Shown piece by piece: positions 4,354-61,201 of a DNA stretch of 64,000 bases (the stretch's first letter is position 1; each line of letters begins with the position of its first letter). Origin of the DNA: Abditibacterium sp. (lineage in GTDB: Bacteria > Armatimonadota > Abditibacteriia > Abditibacteriales > Abditibacteriaceae); NCBI GenBank assembly GCA_030448265.1, contig JAUJNG010000010.1, forward strand, positions 1 to 64,000, given 5' to 3'. The position numbers were made by a program, and so were the translations under genes. Below the pieces are notes generated by a model. That model was not told the origin of the DNA and did not search any database. It saw only the letters and a list, made by a program, of their open reading frames with translations.

Positions 4354-4582
4354 AGACCTCTTTCATAAGTTGTTCGCTCGACTGAAGTCGGCGCTATGGG
4401 CCAGCAAGCTGGCTCACTTTCGGCCTGCGCCGAAAAAAGCAAGGGGTTGTTTTCCCGCGCAGGCGGGAAGTTAGCACCGCAGGTGCCCATCACCCTCTGG
4501 GTCAGCGCCGACTTCAGTCGAGCGAACAATCCGTGCGTAAGTCCTAAATCCGAGGCTTTGAACCACTTTTGCAAGAGGTCTG
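4354..4582. repeat. large nested palindrome
   Basis: Arms 4370-4395 and 4504-4529 (TTGTTCGCTCGACTGAAGTC...) are perfect 26-bp inverted copies. An outer pair, AGACCTCTT and AAGAGGTCT, extends the structure. The centre holds short hairpins (GCCAGCAAGCTGGC; GCACCGCAGGTGC). No gene lies between 4239 and 4637. Confidence 0.85.
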
Positions 4583-13223: not shown

Positions 13224-13357
13224 TGACCGGTTCCCTCTCCGCTTGCGGGGAGGGTTAGGGAGAGGTGAGCCGAAAGAGTGGCTGTTCCTGAATCGGGCGC
13301 TCACTTGCACCGCCCACCCCTCCCTAACCCTCCCCGCAAGCGGAGAGGGAACGGTCA
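13224..13357. repeat. long palindrome between divergent genes
   Basis: Arms 13224-13267 and 13315-13357 (GTTCCCTCTCCGCTTGCGGG...) are about 43 bp and nearly perfect. This element lies between divergent genes (GH26 and rfbD), so it cannot be a shared terminator. It sits upstream of both starts. Confidence 0.9.
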
Positions 13358-15071: not shown

Positions 15072-15073
15072 GA

Positions 15074-15170
15074 AGCGACATGAAGTCGCAGCCAACGAAA
15101 CTGTCGGCCTTCGCCGACAACCCCCGTCAACGAAGGTTGACGATTTCGTTGGCTGCGACTTCATGTCGCT
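15074..15170. repeat. cloverleaf palindrome (outer stem plus two hairpins)
   Basis: Perfect outer arms 15074-15100 and 15144-15170 (AGCGACATGAAGTCGCAGCC...) enclose two hairpins. One is GTCGGCCTTCGCCGAC and the other is GTCAACGAAGGTTGAC. The hairpin cores CCTTCG and CGAAGG are complementary to each other. The same architecture recurs at 59555-59670, and a half copy is at 32305. Confidence 0.9.
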
Positions 15171-15213
15171 TTTGAGCCGCGCAAGTCTTCACAGAAAGGC
15201 GCCGCATGATGCA

Positions 15214-15333: not shown

Positions 15334-18300
15334 ATGGCCGACACAAAACCAACCAAAAACACCACCAACAGTGGCTACAACGCCGAAAACATCACCGTCC
15401 TGGAAGGTCTCGAAGCGGTGCGGATGCGCCCAGGCATGTATATCGGCTCGACCGACGAACGCGGCGTTTTCGTGCTGCTGCGCGAAGTGCTCGACAACTC
15501 GACCGACGAAGCGATGGCGGGCTTTGCCAATCACGTCATCGTGCGCGCTCTGCCCGACAACAAAGTTCAGGTCGAAGACAACGGGCGCGGCATTCCAGTC
15601 GATATGCACGAAGGAACCGGCAAAAGCGCCCTCGAAGTCGTGATGACCAAGCTCCACGCGGGCGGCAAGTTCAAGCAGGGCACGGAAGATTCCAACTATT
15701 CGACCTCCGCCGGACTCAACGGCGTGGGCGTTTCGTGCGTCAACGCGCTTTCGACCCAGACCATTGTCGAAGTCAAGCGCAACGGCAAGTTGTATCGCCA
15801 GGAGTTTTCCATTGGCGAACCGCTCGGCCCCGTCGAAATCGTGGGCGACGCCGAGGGAACCGGCACGACCGTCACCTACAGGGCCGATGACTCGATTTTC
15901 CAGCATATGTCGGGCGAACTCATCGAACTCGACTTAGATTTGGTGGTGAAGCGCCTGCGCGAGCTGTCCTACCTCATTCCTGGCTGCAAGTTTTCATTCG
16001 AGAACCAGCGCGGCGAAAAGCCAGCCTCGGTGACTTTCATCACCAAAGGCGGTCTGCCGGAATTTGTGGAAGACCTCAACAAGAGCAAAACGCCGCTTTT
16101 CCCGCGCGCCATTCATTTCAAGGGCGTTCGCAAAGATGAGAACGGGCCGAAAACCATCGAAGTGGAAGTCGCGCTGCAATACAACGACTCTTACCACGAC
16201 ACCATCATCGCCTTTGGCAACTCGATTCACAACATTCACGGCGGCTTGCACGAATCGGGCTTCAAAACCGGCCTGACGCGCGCGGTTTTGAACTACGCCA
16301 AGCGCAAAAACCTGCTCAAGGACAAAGACCCCAAAATCGAAGGCGACGACGTGCGCGAAGGCCTGGTCGCCATCATTTCGGTGAAGGTGTCCGACCCGAT
16401 TTTCTCGTCGCAGGCCAAAGAACGCCTCGCCGGCCCGACCTTCATCGAAGGCGCCGTCAACTCGCTGGTGGGCGAAGGTTTGACCGAATATCTTGAAGAA
16501 AACCCGCGCATCGCCGAGAAGATCGTCCAGAAAGCGGTGATTGCGGCGCAGGCGCGCGAAGCGGCCAAAAAAGCCAAGGATTTGGTGCAGCGCAAAAGCG
16601 CGCTCGAATCGGATTCGCTGCCAGGCAAACTGGCCGACTGCTCGGAAAAAGACCCGCGTTTGTGCGAGATTTTCCTGGTCGAGGGCGATTCGGCGGGCGG
16701 ATGCTTTTCGGGCGATACACTGGTGGCACTCGCCGATGGGCGCAATGTGTCTTTTGAAGATTTAGTCGCCGAGCAAAACGCGGGCAAGGAACATTTCGTC
16801 TACACCATTCGCCGCGACGGAAAAATCGGCGTCGAGCGCGCGCTTCACGCCCGCGTCACCAAGAAAAACACTCGCGTTGTCGCGGTGACTCTGGACAACG
16901 GCGAGCGCATTGTTTGCACGCCAGACCATCGCTTCATGCTGCGCGACGGCTCTTACAAAGCAGCCGCGCAACTACAGGGCGATGATTCGCTGATGCCGCT
17001 TTATCGCAAAATTTCCGACAAAAACGAGGCGGGCATCACCATCGACGGCTACGAAATGGCTCTTGACCCCCGAAGCGGACAGTGGCAGTTCACCCACGTT
17101 CTGGCGGATCGGTGGAATCGCTGGCAGGGTTTTTACGCCCTGGAATCGGGCGCGCACTGCCATCACATCGACTTCAACAAGCGCAACAACGACCCGACGA
17201 ATCTGGTTCGTTTGAGCGCGCAGGCGCATCTGGAACTGCACCGCGCGCACGCTTCCCGAACGCTGCACCGGCCTGAAGTGATTGAAAAGTGCCGCCAGAT
17301 TCACCGGAGCGACGAATTTCGCGCCGCGATGAGTGCGCGAATGCAGCAGCCGCAAACCCGCGAAGTTTTGAGTGAGCAGGCCAAAGCGCAGTGGACCGAC
17401 CCCAATTATAAAGCGGAAATGACGGCGCGCTGGCGCGAGTTTTACGACGCAAATCCCGCTTATCGCGCGCAAAACGCGGCGAATCTTGACGCGGCGCAGC
17501 GTGAATTCTGGAAGTGCGAAGAGAACCGAAACGCTCAGTCACAGCGCACGCGCGCGTATTTCGAGGCCCATCCCGCCGCGCGCGAAGAGTTGTCGCGCCT
17601 CGCTCAGGCGCAGTGGAGCGATGCCGAACTTCGCGCCTGGCGCGCCGAGGCGACGCGCGCACAGTGGACGCCGCAGTTCCGCGAGTCGCGCCGCGAAGCG
17701 CTGCGCGCGACGTATCTGCGAAAGTCACTCGCGACCTTGCGTGACTGCGGCGGCGATGTCAAGTCTTACGAGGCGACGCGCAAAACGAGCCGCGACATGT
17801 CGGTTTTGCGCTTCGATTCGCTGTGCGGACGCTATTTCGAGGGCGACGCCGCACGCGCTCTCGAAGCCGCCGCGCATTTCAATCATCGCGTGGTATCGGT
17901 CGAGACTCTATGTGAAACCATTGACGTCTTCGACATTGAAGTGCCCCGCACCCACAATTTCGCGCTGGCGTCGGGCGTTTTCGTTCACAACAGCGCCAAA
18001 CAGGGCCGCGACCGCAAATTCCAGGCGATTTTGCCGCTCCGAGGCAAAATCATCAACGTCGAAAAGAACCGGCTCGACCGCATTCTGGGCAACGAAGAAA
18101 TTCGCGCCATGATTACCGCGTTCGGGACGGGCATCGCCGACCGCGTGGATTACGACGATATCGCCGAGCAAATCGAGGAAATGGAGCAGGGCGCGCTCGA
18201 TCTCGCGCCCGACGCCGATGGCGAGACGCCGAGTCTGGACGGCGCTTCCAATGGCGCCGCTTCGGATGGTGGCTCGGCGCGCAAACGCTCCAGCAAGGGC

Positions 18301-18768
18301 GGCAAAGTCAACTCCGCCTTCGATATTCAGCGCTTGCGCTACGACCGCATCATCATCATGTGCGACGCCGACGTGGACGGCTCTCACATCCGCACCCTTT
18401 TGCTGACGTTTTTGTTCCGCTATATGCGTCCGCTCGTCGAATCGGGGCACATTTACATCGCCAAGCCGCCGCTTTATTCGATTCGACGCGGCAAGAAGAT
18501 CGAATACGCCTACACCGACGCCGAGCGCGACAAGATGCTCAAGGGCACGCGCGGCGACGTGGGCCGCTTCAAGGGACTGGGCGAGATGAATCCCGAAGAG
18601 TTGTGGTCAACTACGATGGTGCCGGAGAATCGCCTCTTGATGCAGGTCACGCTCGAAGACGTGGCCGAAGCTGACCAGATTTTCTCGATTTTGATGGGCG
18701 ATGCGGTCGAGCCGCGCAAGCTGTTCATCGAGGAAAACGCGCAGTTGGTGGCGGATCTGGACGTGTAA
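15334..18768 (+). CDS. gyrB: DNA gyrase subunit B, intein-containing precursor
   Basis: A 1144-residue precursor of the ATPase subunit of gyrase. The GHKL ATPase domain (VLEGLEAVRMRPGMYIG; EVLDNSTDEA; VEDNGRGIPVD) and transducer domain precede the TOPRIM motif EGDSAGG, where an intein interrupts the host protein (residues 457-886). After splicing, EGDSAGG joins SAKQGRDRKFQ, leaving a host protein of about 714 residues. This is longer than a minimal GyrB. Part of the excess is a low-complexity acidic/Ser-Gly insert (GALDLAPDADGETPSLDGAS...) before the TOPRIM DADVDGSHI. It has its own promoter and a possible leader attenuator. The downstream TA genes follow at 3 bases. Confidence 0.97.
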   Translation: MADTKPTKNTTNSGYNAENITVLEGLEAVRMRPGMYIGSTDERGVFVLLREVLDNSTDEAMAGFANHVIVRALPDNKVQVEDNGRGIPVDMHEGTGKSALEVVMTKLHAGGKFKQGTEDSNYSTSAGLNGVGVSCVNALSTQTIVEVKRNGKLYRQEFSIGEPLGPVEIVGDAEGTGTTVTYRADDSIFQHMSGELIELDLDLVVKRLRELSYLIPGCKFSFENQRGEKPASVTFITKGGLPEFVEDLNKSKTPLFPRAIHFKGVRKDENGPKTIEVEVALQYNDSYHDTIIAFGNSIHNIHGGLHESGFKTGLTRAVLNYAKRKNLLKDKDPKIEGDDVREGLVAIISVKVSDPIFSSQAKERLAGPTFIEGAVNSLVGEGLTEYLEENPRIAEKIVQKAVIAAQAREAAKKAKDLVQRKSALESDSLPGKLADCSEKDPRLCEIFLVEGDSAGGCFSGDTLVALADGRNVSFEDLVAEQNAGKEHFVYTIRRDGKIGVERALHARVTKKNTRVVAVTLDNGERIVCTPDHRFMLRDGSYKAAAQLQGDDSLMPLYRKISDKNEAGITIDGYEMALDPRSGQWQFTHVLADRWNRWQGFYALESGAHCHHIDFNKRNNDPTNLVRLSAQAHLELHRAHASRTLHRPEVIEKCRQIHRSDEFRAAMSARMQQPQTREVLSEQAKAQWTDPNYKAEMTARWREFYDANPAYRAQNAANLDAAQREFWKCEENRNAQSQRTRAYFEAHPAAREELSRLAQAQWSDAELRAWRAEATRAQWTPQFRESRREALRATYLRKSLATLRDCGGDVKSYEATRKTSRDMSVLRFDSLCGRYFEGDAARALEAAAHFNHRVVSVETLCETIDVFDIEVPRTHNFALASGVFVHNSAKQGRDRKFQAILPLRGKIINVEKNRLDRILGNEEIRAMITAFGTGIADRVDYDDIAEQIEEMEQGALDLAPDADGETPSLDGASNGAASDGGSARKRSSKGGKVNSAFDIQRLRYDRIIIMCDADVDGSHIRTLLLTFLFRYMRPLVESGHIYIAKPPLYSIRRGKKIEYAYTDAERDKMLKGTRGDVGRFKGLGEMNPEELWSTTMVPENRLLMQVTLEDVAEADQIFSILMGDAVEPRKLFIEENAQLVADLDV
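16702..17991 (+). other. GyrB intein with HNH homing endonuclease
   Basis: A 430-residue intein in the GyrB TOPRIM motif. It has Cys1 (CFSGDTLVALADG), block B with TPDHRFML, and the C-terminal block F/G DVFDIEVPRTHNFALASG ending VFVHN, with Ser as the +1 residue. All splice residues are present. The centre carries an HNH nuclease (HCHHIDFNKRNNDPTNL; AHLELHRAH), followed by Trp-rich repeats (AQWTDPNYK, AQWSDAELR, AQWTPQFRE). From memory it closely resembles the Synechocystis GyrB intein in insertion site, size and order of parts. Splicing and the nuclease both look functional. Confidence 0.95.
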
Positions 18769-29196: not shown

Positions 29197-29281
29197 AGGC
29201 GGGACTTACGTCCTCTTCCAATCAGGGTGTGTCGCAATTGCAACTGCGTTCCTCGATTGGAAGAGGACGTAAGTCCCGCCT
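29197..29281. repeat. perfect-arm palindrome
   Basis: Arms 29197-29223 and 29255-29281 are perfect 27-bp inverted copies (AGGCGGGACTTACGTCCTC...). The centre holds a small CGCAATTGC-type hairpin. It ends 4 bases past the stop of the gene at 29286. Confidence 0.9.
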
Positions 29282-32281: not shown

Positions 32282-32304
32282 GAGTTGGCAGGATTTCAAG
32301 CGGG

Positions 32305-32351
32305 GTTGTCGGCGAAGGCCGACAATTTCGTTGGCTGCGAATTTATTTCGC
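32305..32351. repeat. half copy of the cloverleaf palindrome
   Basis: GTCGGCGAAGGCCGAC followed by ATTTCGTTGGCTGCGA is the second hairpin plus the start of the right outer arm of the element at 15074-15170. The left half is absent. The arm diverges into TTTATTTCGC. Confidence 0.78.
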
Positions 32352-32425
32352 TTTTTCGTCGCTTCCAGAGTATCCGAAAAGCAACGCCGCTCCGCCCCAC
32401 CCGTCTTGCCAATTCCCCCTTTCTC

Positions 32426-34009: not shown

Positions 34010-34073
34010 CCAAGTTGCCAGCTACGGCTGCCAGAAGGATGAAGTCTCCTGGCAGCCGTAGCTGGCAACTTGG
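34010..34073. repeat. perfect-arm palindrome
   Basis: Arms 34010-34034 and 34049-34073 are perfect 25-bp inverted copies (CCAAGTTGCCAGCTACGGCT...). It lies between convergent genes. Confidence 0.92.
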
Positions 34074-35810: not shown

Positions 35811-35898
35811 TGGAGAACGCGAAGCGTCAGCGAGTGAAGCTCGACTGCAAAGACAAAGTGACGGTCAGGCCTCACTCGCTGACGCTTCGCGTTCTCCA
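35811..35898. repeat. palindrome overlapping the glycosylase 3' end
   Basis: Arms 35811-35838 and 35871-35898 are 28 bp with one mismatch (TGGAGAACGCGAAGCGTCAG...). The right arm encodes the last residues of the glycosylase (GEREASASEA). Confidence 0.9.
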
Positions 35899-56111: not shown

Positions 56112-56217
56112 GTCATTCCGAGGAGGCACGACGAGGAATCGGTTGCATTTTCGGCTCGTTTTGGCGGAAGTGAAACGAAACTCTTACCGATTCCTCGTCG
56201 TGCCTCCTCGGAATGAC
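56112..56217. repeat. perfect-arm palindrome
   Basis: Arms 56112-56143 and 56186-56217 are perfect 32-bp inverted copies (GTCATTCCGAGGAGGCACGA...). It lies between two same-strand genes and contains no obvious promoter. Confidence 0.92.
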
Positions 56218-59087: not shown

Positions 59088-59162
59088 TTCAATGTTGAGC
59101 GTTCAATGTCCAATGTTGAGCTTTAAACATTGAACATTGGACATTGAACGCTCAACATTGAA
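59088..59162. repeat. perfect palindrome in the sucC leader
   Basis: Arms 59088-59117 and 59133-59162 are perfect 30-bp inverted copies (TTCAATGTTGAGCGTTCAAT...). It occupies the whole gap between the small coiled-coil gene (stop at 59166) and sucC (start 59077). The sequence itself is built from the word TTCAATGT. Confidence 0.93.
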
Positions 59163-59554: not shown

Positions 59555-59670
59555 CCTGCCAGCGAATAAATTCGCCGCAAAGGAAAACGAAGTCCGCCTT
59601 CGCGGACTGAGATCGCAACCTGCGAAGGCAGGTTTTGCTCTTCTTTGCGGCGAATTTATTCGCTGGCAGG
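59555..59670. repeat. cloverleaf palindrome, second copy
   Basis: Perfect 28-bp outer arms (59555-59582, 59643-59670; CCTGCCAGCGAATAAATTCG...) enclose two hairpins, AGTCCGCCTTCGCGGACT and AACCTGCGAAGGCAGGTT. The outer-arm and stem sequences differ from 15074-15170, but the architecture and CCTTCG/CGAAGG cores are the same. The right arm overlaps the 3' end of the interrupted gene. Confidence 0.92.
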
Positions 59671-59970
59671 CGAAGCGCCGCCAGGAGCGGGAAACGCGGG
59701 CCACACGACCCGCAGTTCGACGTCTGAAAGCTCGCTTTCGAAAACCGTCGCGACGGGCTGTCTGGGGTCGGCGATGGCGCGAATTTCCAGGATACCACCT
59801 GGTTTTTCGGGCACATAATGAACCGCGACGGGCGGTTTAAACTCTTTGAAATTGGGGTCTTTGGACGCCGCCGCAATTTGCGCCACTCGCGCCCAGTCGC
59901 GCGACTGGGCCGCCTGCACGAGCGCGGGGACGTCGTGGGGCAGCACGTTGTAGGGCGTTTTGGAAATAAA

Positions 59971-60554
59971 GAATCCCCGCAGCAAGCTACGGGGTATTTG
60001 AATAGAAGGAGTGTAACTTTTGTTGTCAAGTGTCGAAGAGCACCAACTGCTGCTGATGCAAGGTCTGGTAAGTGCCTGTGCCCTGTTTTCTCACATAATC
60101 CGCGATGGTCTGTGCGTTGCCATGTTGTCCCACCGTCGAGATGAAGTAGCCACTCGACCAAAACGCGCCGCCCCACAGCTTCTTCTTGACTTGAGGGTAG
60201 CGCGAGAGCACTTCGCGTGCGGTCAAGCTCTTGATTTTTTGTGCGAGTTGCTGCGGGCTGTAAGTCGGCACGCTCTGCACCAAAAAGTGGACGTGGTCGC
60301 GGTCAGTGCCAATCTCGATGAACACGATCTCGTAGCGACACGCGATCTCCAGGCACACCTCGCGCAACACCGCGTCCACCTGTTCATCGATCACCACCCG
60401 ACGATACTTGGTGGGACACACCAGATGATAAAGCAACACCGACACGTTGTGGCTTTTGTGCCGGAACACCACTTGGCCTTCTGAACTCATACGTCCAGTT
60501 TGCCCTCACACTTCCAATCCGCAGCAAGCTGCGGGGTATCTAACCCAAGAGAAT
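59971..60554 (-). mobile_element. IS200/IS605-like insertion sequence, tnpA only
   Basis: A 584-bp element carrying only a Y1 transposase. Each end bears a subterminal hairpin: CCCCGCAGCAAGCTACGGGG on the left and CCGCAGCAAGCTGCGG on the right. GAA(T) is shared at both junctions. The interrupted gene is restored in frame on removal. There is no tnpB. Confidence 0.88.
60026..60490 (-). CDS. tnpA: Y1 transposase TnpA (IS200 family)
   Basis: A 154-residue single-strand transposase. It has the HUH pair in GTDRDHVHFLVQS, LYHLVCPTKYRRVVID near the start, and the catalytic Tyr in QTIADYVRKQGTG. It has full length and looks intact. It recognises the terminal hairpins of the element. Confidence 0.95.
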   Translation of the reverse strand: MSSEGQVVFRHKSHNVSVLLYHLVCPTKYRRVVIDEQVDAVLREVCLEIACRYEIVFIEIGTDRDHVHFLVQSVPTYSPQQLAQKIKSLTAREVLSRYPQVKKKLWGGAFWSSGYFISTVGQHGNAQTIADYVRKQGTGTYQTLHQQQLVLFDT

Positions 60555-60832
60555 GAACCAGCGATTGCGCTCTTCGCTGTAGCGCCGCCCCGCCGCGAAA
60601 TACATCACCAGGGTCGCGGCGATGGCGCAGAGCAATCCTTCGATGCCCAGCAACGCCCAGAACATTCCCCTGCTAATGTTGGCACCGCGCCCGCGCCGTC
60701 CGGAGACTTCCAGACCGCTTTGCGCGCGCTGTTCCAGATATTGGCGTGTTGTGGCGATGGGCGATTCGGATTGGGGTGTGGTCGCGGCGCGCCCGCCCTG
60801 CACCTGGCCGCGATGCGATTGGGCTTCCTGAC

Positions 60833-61201
60833 TCAGCGCCATCGAAAAAGCGAGGAGTCCCGCCAGAAAGCCGACCAGGGCCGCCAGATTCGCATTACGC
60901 ACTTTTTACGCACTTTGCCGAAATGAATGGCCGGAAAAAAGGCCGCTCCGGTGAGCGCGCCCAGAAGCGCCGCGCCGATGAGAACCGTCCACAGCGAGGA
61001 AAAAAGCCCCATCCCGAAATGCGCGGTTTTGTCGTAGAGAAACGCGGTTAATCCTGGCGCCATCAAAAACGTGACCAAAATGAGCGGCCAGCCCATCGGC
61101 CCGACTTTGCCGCTCGGTTTATAGCCCCGCAATGCCGTCAGAGGCTGCGAAGGAGGATTAGCGCCTGCGCCGGAAGGAAGATTTGCGGGAGAAGGATTCA
61201 T
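60833..61201 (-). CDS. small membrane protein, hypothetical
   Basis: A 122-residue protein: Pro/Ser-rich N-terminus, then two transmembrane helices (PLILVTFLMAPGLTAFLYD; LWTVLIGAALLGALTGAAFF). The C-terminus is basic. Its last 70 bases overlap the start of the interrupted gene in another frame, which is unusual. It has its own promoter 43 bases upstream (61244-61272). Confidence 0.7.
   Translation of the reverse strand: MNPSPANLPSGAGANPPSQPLTALRGYKPSGKVGPMGWPLILVTFLMAPGLTAFLYDKTAHFGMGLFSSLWTVLIGAALLGALTGAAFFPAIHFGKVRKKCVMRIWRPWSAFWRDSSLFRWR

Follow-up and report, generated by a model that had tools for sequence, protein, structure and literature searches.

Palindromic elements in the window

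The stretch of Abditibacterium sp. DNA that is considered here (positions 1 to 64,000 of contig JAUJNG010000010.1, assembly GCA_030448265.1; the window, 64,000 nt in full) contains two near-perfect palindromes that adjoin the ends of genes, one behind the gene of an ABC-type ATPase and the other at the end of a gene read from 59985 to 59656, which terminates at a stop codon provided by the palindrome. An initial annotation of this DNA described the two as sharing a common plan with CCTTCG and CGAAGG hairpins, and noticed a half copy at 32305-32351. This description was borne out, and the exact limits are 15073-15171, 59555-59670 and, for the half copy, 32302-32356. Both palindromes consist of two perfect 28 bp outer arms, separated by 43 nt in the first and by 60 nt in the second, and in both the intervening stretch carries two inner hairpins with CCTTCG and CGAAGG. 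When folded as single-stranded DNA, they reach -50.6 kcal/mol (z = -15.8) and -51.4 kcal/mol (z = -12.5), respectively, values that in either case were equalled by none of 200 dinucleotide shuffles. The element at 32302-32356 is a true half copy of family A, that is, of the 15073 type, with one arm and two hairpins (z = -4.5). The features, none of which is assigned a strand, are the following:

15073..15171, no strand: complete family A gene-less doublet, starting 1 bp past the TAA stop (ends 15071) of the ABC-type ATPase gene
15075..15089, no strand: mini-hairpin H1 in the left arm of the 15073 copy, GCGAC-atgaa-GTCGC; self-complementary across A copies, with C/G, A/T and T/A as the three alleles
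15102..15119, no strand: inner hairpin H2 of the 15073 copy, TGTCGGC-CTTC-GCCGACA
15126..15141, no strand: inner hairpin H3 of the 15073 copy, GTCAACGAAGGTTGAC, with paired changes relative to H2
15155..15169, no strand: mini-hairpin H4 in the right arm of the 15073 copy, GCGAC-ttcat-GTCGC
32302..32356, no strand: family A half copy, one arm with hairpins H3 and H4, upstream of a protease gene
59555..59670, no strand: family B gene-less doublet; the preceding gene ends at a TAA (59656-59658, minus strand) that is part of its right arm
59591..59608, no strand: inner hairpin of the 59555 copy, AGTCCGC-CTTC-GCGGACT
59617..59634, no strand: inner hairpin of the 59555 copy, AACCTGC-GAAG-GCAGGTT

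No RNA family of Rfam reached its gathering score within the 64,000-nt window. The intergenic space of the host is full of palindromes, and the window holds further long inverted repeats, mostly intergenic and unrelated to the elements above (1307-1444, 13230-13352, 29197-29281, 34010-34073, 35811-35898 and 59088-59162); the palindrome of the 29197 type is found again elsewhere in the genome (L009, L065). A GyrB gene with an apparent intein occupies 15334-18768 (ORF of 1163 aa, CFSGDT...VHNS junctions).

Copy number and architecture

Searching the 4.95 Mb host assembly, a MAG that is 93% complete, with each element by BLAST yielded tens of sites, and the covariance-model search that had been called for in the initial annotation, carried out with two models, gave at least 134 and at least 127 scored matches with both strands counted. 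Altogether, the host genome harbors at least 138 non-redundant copies with mutually unrelated flanks, so the two palindromes of the window are by no means the only ones; nor is one stem derived from the other without compensatory changes, such changes being common. The copies form four related groups, namely A (at least 35 copies, AGCGACATGAAGTCGC-AGCC-AACGAAA), A3 (at least 11, GGCGAATGAATTCGC-AGCC-AGAAAAAGG), B (at least 60, CAGCGAATAAATTCGC-CGCAAAGG) and B2 (at least 32, CAGCGACTAAAGTCAC-CGCAACAACGACGCG). The suggestion that stems differ while their pairing is kept thus holds inside each family, where the compensatory changes are seen, but not for the pair from which it was drawn, as the elements at 15073 and 59555 differ simply by being distinct elements of families A and B.

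Each arm is built of an outer mini-hairpin (H1 or H4) and an inner hairpin (H2 or H3). In H1 of family A, one pair is C-G, A-T or T-A (16, 9 and 4 copies, respectively), and it is the same in both arms of a copy. Among B and B2, four copies combine one arm of each type, with pairing kept within the arms but lost between them, and 25 copies of A and A3 carry two unlike inner hairpins, in which Watson-Crick pairs account for 140/150 local positions (93%) as against 58/150 cross-arm positions (39%). Hence, in these heterodimers, pairing is maintained for each individual hairpin. The 46 nt arm of family A is 88% identical among copies, and the filler between the hairpins, mostly 14-17 nt long, is 45% identical (36% when shuffled). 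Palindrome-correcting replication could also help to keep the outer arms identical.

Three further apparent half copies (C40:20860, C24:28563 and C42:1) were tried as singlets and rejected, as they reflect gaps in the assembly or the end of a contig. At L222 3890-3905, L268 1667-1676 and L269 1-64, arms of family A border on runs of N or on a contig end, which suggests that A-type palindromes cause assembly failures in MAGs.

Both A and B are absent genome-wide from a genome of the same genus (G001), which stands at about 80% to the host in sucC, too far for an alignment of intergenic regions that would reveal empty sites. This absence fits either a gain after the divergence or a loss in G001.

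Position relative to genes and the possibility of an RNA function

The placement of the copies relative to stop codons, to which the initial annotation had drawn attention, is distinctive. Nearly all copies (136/138) are intergenic, and the median copy lies 9 bp from a stop codon. Genes were called by codon usage, with the window as the training set; as this caller is crude, single distances may be off. In 26 cases, the copy itself provides the stop codon at element positions 8-10, through a TAA or TGA in H1 of B or B2. Convergent gene pairs hold 31 copies and divergent ones 16; between tandem genes, 69 of 89 copies are closer to the stop of the upstream gene (median 5 bp) than to the start of the downstream one (median 53 bp). 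REPs are likewise found mostly behind genes (PMC3733652).

Such a distribution, together with stems that are much better conserved than the filler, is what would be expected if A and B persisted mainly as RNA elements, i.e., terminators or stabilizers of mRNA 3'-ends, under host selection, with their mobility long past. However, the position behind stop codons is also compatible with mere tolerance of insertions, both strands fold equally, and A and B are, as noted above, entirely missing from the genome of the same genus. A G-U bias was considered as an RNA-specific signature and rejected: in the orientation in which the upstream gene is transcribed, the mismatches in the outer stem comprise 27 G-U, 20 A-C and 40 others, without a clear excess of G-U and, hence, with nothing that would point to RNA in particular. 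The RNA processing envisaged in the initial annotation thus finds no specific support, and we regard persistence as host-selected RNA elements as unlikely.

Nesting in an IS5-family MITE

Many copies of B2 form the center of an IS5-like MITE, the 19 bp ends of which, TAGACCTCTTGCAAAAGTG, gave 63 hits; the host has, at C7:159203-160058, an IS5-like transposase with the same ends. Part of the spread of B2 is, probably, IS5-type (DDE) transposition of this composite. Other copies of the MITE hold different palindromes, among them doublets of GTAG-type REPs and members of the GTCATTCCGAGG family, which occurs also at 56112-56217; the presence of several unrelated cores in the same MITE indicates that the core is separable from it. 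Palindromic doublets centered in another palindrome are known among REP dimers (A. variabilis GTAG-15, H. neapolitanus CGTC-1; PMC3733652), whereas in the present case an IS5-family MITE with several unrelated cores forms the outer palindrome.

Were A and B themselves MITEs of a DDE transposon, with the outer palindrome as the terminal inverted repeat, the B2 composite and its matching transposase would be accounted for; yet the same MITE bears the other cores, DDE-type terminal repeats surround many B2 copies (the IS5-like shell) but were not observed around A, A3 and the majority of B copies, 9-mers common to the flanks are rare for A and B and absent for A3, and no target duplication was noticed at the edges of A and B in an inspection made without statistics, so that this origin appears very improbable. 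The palindromy between left and right flanks (10 copies with runs of at least 7, against a shuffled mean of 1.6) was weighed as proof of insertion of A and B into terminator hairpins and rejected, since it stems largely from the IS5 MITE around B2.

Two loci in the window are related to this MITE family or to its cores. At 4354-4582, an unrelated palindromic core with CGACTGAAGTCG, one of the several cores borne by this MITE family, lies between IS5-family MITE ends, AGACCTCTTGCAAAAGTG, one of which is degenerate. At 56112-56217, there is a 32 bp inverted repeat GTCATTCCGAGGAGGCACGACGAGGAATCGGT, relatives of which are cores of IS5-type MITEs at L277, L288 and L298.

Candidate enzymes: IS200 and RAYT

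The enzyme nearest to the family B copy of the window is an IS200 transposase (60026-60490, NF033573), 356 bp from 59555-59670. It was rejected as the mobilizer because it is a bystander in a host gene and its end hairpins are unlike; the IS200 ends of the host genome, ACCCCGCCGCTTGCGG.., do not match those of A and B. This IS200 copy, at about 59965-60557 with tnpA on the minus strand, splits a host membrane-protein gene into 60540-60902 and 59656-59985. Elsewhere in the host genome, two IS200 copies lie inside arms of B elements at TTTATTC/TTCATTC, which is explained by the occurrence of the IS200 target in B arms; one further copy (L065) sits beside another palindrome.

The initial annotation hinted at a REP-associated tyrosine transposase, and the possibility that A and B represent classical REPINs mobilized by a RAYT (class 2 TnpA-REP) deserves attention given that inverted doublets, variable spacers, compensatory changes and a position 3' of genes are all traits of REPINs and REPs (PMC3116915, PMC3733652) and that the host possesses a RAYT (C38:279681). 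Nevertheless, both flanks of this RAYT gene carry GTAG-type REPs, GTAGGGGCGTAGCGTGCTACGCCC, that are unrelated to A and B, and it was therefore rejected as their mobilizer. Furthermore, where GTAG would stand, the alignments of A and B show an inward-facing CAAC or CAAA (reverse complement GTTG/TTTG), and homology searches found neither RAYT nor IS200 at the 55 loci selected by an element pattern (see below). With neither a GTAG foot nor a RAYT partner, A and B are not REPINs in the strict sense, although they are REPIN-like in their working, and mobilization by a RAYT seems to us highly unlikely. The host RAYT locus is a classical REPtron, with the gene between doublets of the GTAG-type REPs (L175 2530-3225), so this host maintains at least two parallel palindrome systems.

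The Y---Q--HH clade of Y1 transposases

A scan of genomes with the DNA pattern GCGACTRAAGTCRCSGCAACA gave 55 named loci, not all of which are true B2-like elements. Elements of B2 type with the same four-hairpin plan occur in Gemmatimonadota, in Anaerolineae and other Chloroflexota, and in an Abditibacteriaceae MAG. At five of the 55 loci, there is a Y1 gene with the motif Y---Q--HH, adjacent in four cases and about 1.5 kb away in one. The Y1 gene of L361 has a half element 33 bp upstream of it, and a full element follows 9 bp downstream; L320, L318 and L317 show a similar arrangement, and in L104 a further relative has the element beside the Y1 gene. In a genome of the host's own taxonomic family (G002, locus L092), a broken copy of the Y1 gene lies between two full B2-like elements.

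The proteins of this clade are about 138-141 aa long, contain Y1_Tnp as the single Pfam domain along with the H-x-H signature, and match solved transposases of the IS200/IS605 type, e.g., ISHp608 TnpA; the Y---Q--HH motif is present in 29 of 30. In the tree, the clade splits from the IS200s and RAYTs of the host with support 96/90, a grouping that is partly due to selection because a profile was used to collect the proteins. Genes of the clade are present in 32 of 101 genomes, including the same-genus G001, which has two of them yet neither A nor B. The host itself has one (C7:135281-135691), beside a doublet of the same plan that belongs to another family, C, with several further copies in the host; no inverted arms above the shuffled range were found around this gene (score 10.5).

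Of 30 Y1 genes examined in this clade, about 24 are flanked by inverted arms (score of at least 14; shuffled 95% limit, 12.5), and many of these arms show the plan of H1 plus inner hairpin, as exemplified by GGGATTAAAATCCCGCGCTATGACGCAAAGTCCGCCTTCGCGGACT in L378, which has exactly the inner hairpin of B. A Y1 protein of the clade is encoded in G002 at C12:202100-202510. In G002, the arm of the intact Y1 gene, which is of the family C type, forms 36 inverted pairs: 35 have 15-58 nt between the arms, and one has 577 bp that enclose the gene. Arms of one type that occur once around a gene and many times without it constitute the strongest evidence that gene-less doublets are derivatives of gene-bearing transposons of the Y---Q--HH clade. 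The host assembly, at its 93% completeness, yielded no gene-bearing element with arms of the A or B type.

Taken together, these data make it likely that A and B are gene-less, non-autonomous, REPIN-like derivatives of subclass-1.2 (Y---Q--HH) Y1 transposons. For A, the connection would be through the shared architecture, and for B and B2 through the architecture as well as the related elements beside Y1 genes in other genomes; in this host, too, a transposase of this kind would be the presumed partner. Accordingly, of the options raised in the initial annotation, a mobile element that copies as a hairpin is well supported, with Y1 transposases linked to the same architecture in several genomes, and the hint at a tyrosine transposase proved right as to the Y1 type but not as to the clade, which is other than that of the classical RAYTs.

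A possible mechanism and its relation to known systems

The spread of A and B can be envisaged as follows. Each element consists of two inverted ends of about 45-50 nt and a short filler, in place of which gene-bearing relatives have the gene of a small HUH Y1 transposase (Y---Q--HH, subclass 1.2). When the region becomes single-stranded, e.g., on the lagging strand, the arms may fold, and the Y1 enzyme would recognize the hairpins of both ends, cut and rejoin single strands, and thereby move or copy the element. The proposed recognition of folded ends would explain why hairpin pairing is kept, while the filler, presumably not read, would drift. Copies would build up where they are tolerated, directly behind stop codons, and their TAA or TGA could replace the gene's own stop.

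The likeness to REPINs and REP doublets with their RAYTs (PMC3116915) is extensive, including high-copy, extragenic, hairpin-forming inverted doublets with compensatory changes, spacers less conserved than the ends, singlets as remnants, and a transposase partner of the Y1 type. Unlike REPINs, A and B have no GTAG foot and carry two hairpins per arm, the partner clade is Y---Q--HH (subclass 1.2) rather than the Y---NP RAYT, and in copies that bear a gene, the arms surround it as the ends of an insertion sequence would.

The motif Y---Q--HH defines subclass 1.2 of TnpA-Y1, which was described as generally devoid of terminal IS200 secondary structures or IS properties and as occurring mostly in Cyanobacteria and Bacteroidetes (PMC6006769). 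The clade considered here shares with this subclass the diagnostic motif, the short core and the low copy number per genome, but differs from its description in being flanked by multi-hairpin inverted arms and accompanied by gene-less copies in high numbers. A literature search of limited reach found no paper on subclass 1.2 later than PMC6006769. A comparable layout is that of the TIRYT/TIRtron (PMC3733652), with a Y1 gene between long terminal inverted repeats that are also dispersed as dimers; however, TIRYTs mostly belong to subclass 2.1, with an HTH tail, the end motif GGGGWSAS and no Y---Q--HH, and the clade proteins are not of the Y---NP type with an HTH tail that marks TIRYTs.

Implications

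The best-known gene-less DNA that spreads via Y1 enzymes is that of REPs and REPINs, and RAYTs and tagged REPs underlie the cases that have been described. We lean towards the view that subclass 1.2 provides the transposase for a class of widely distributed transposons, the multi-hairpin arms of which spread also as high-copy gene-less doublets, making up a second REPIN-like system, apart from RAYT and REP, that colonizes the first bases behind stop codons and even supplies stops. A subclass that was without an assigned element in 2018 would thereby gain a candidate substrate, for which G002, with one gene-bearing pair of arms and 35 gene-less ones, offers an internal test genome. An element of the A/B type would, in addition, explain a frequent class of palindromes in the intergenic regions of MAGs, as well as some of the assembly gaps.
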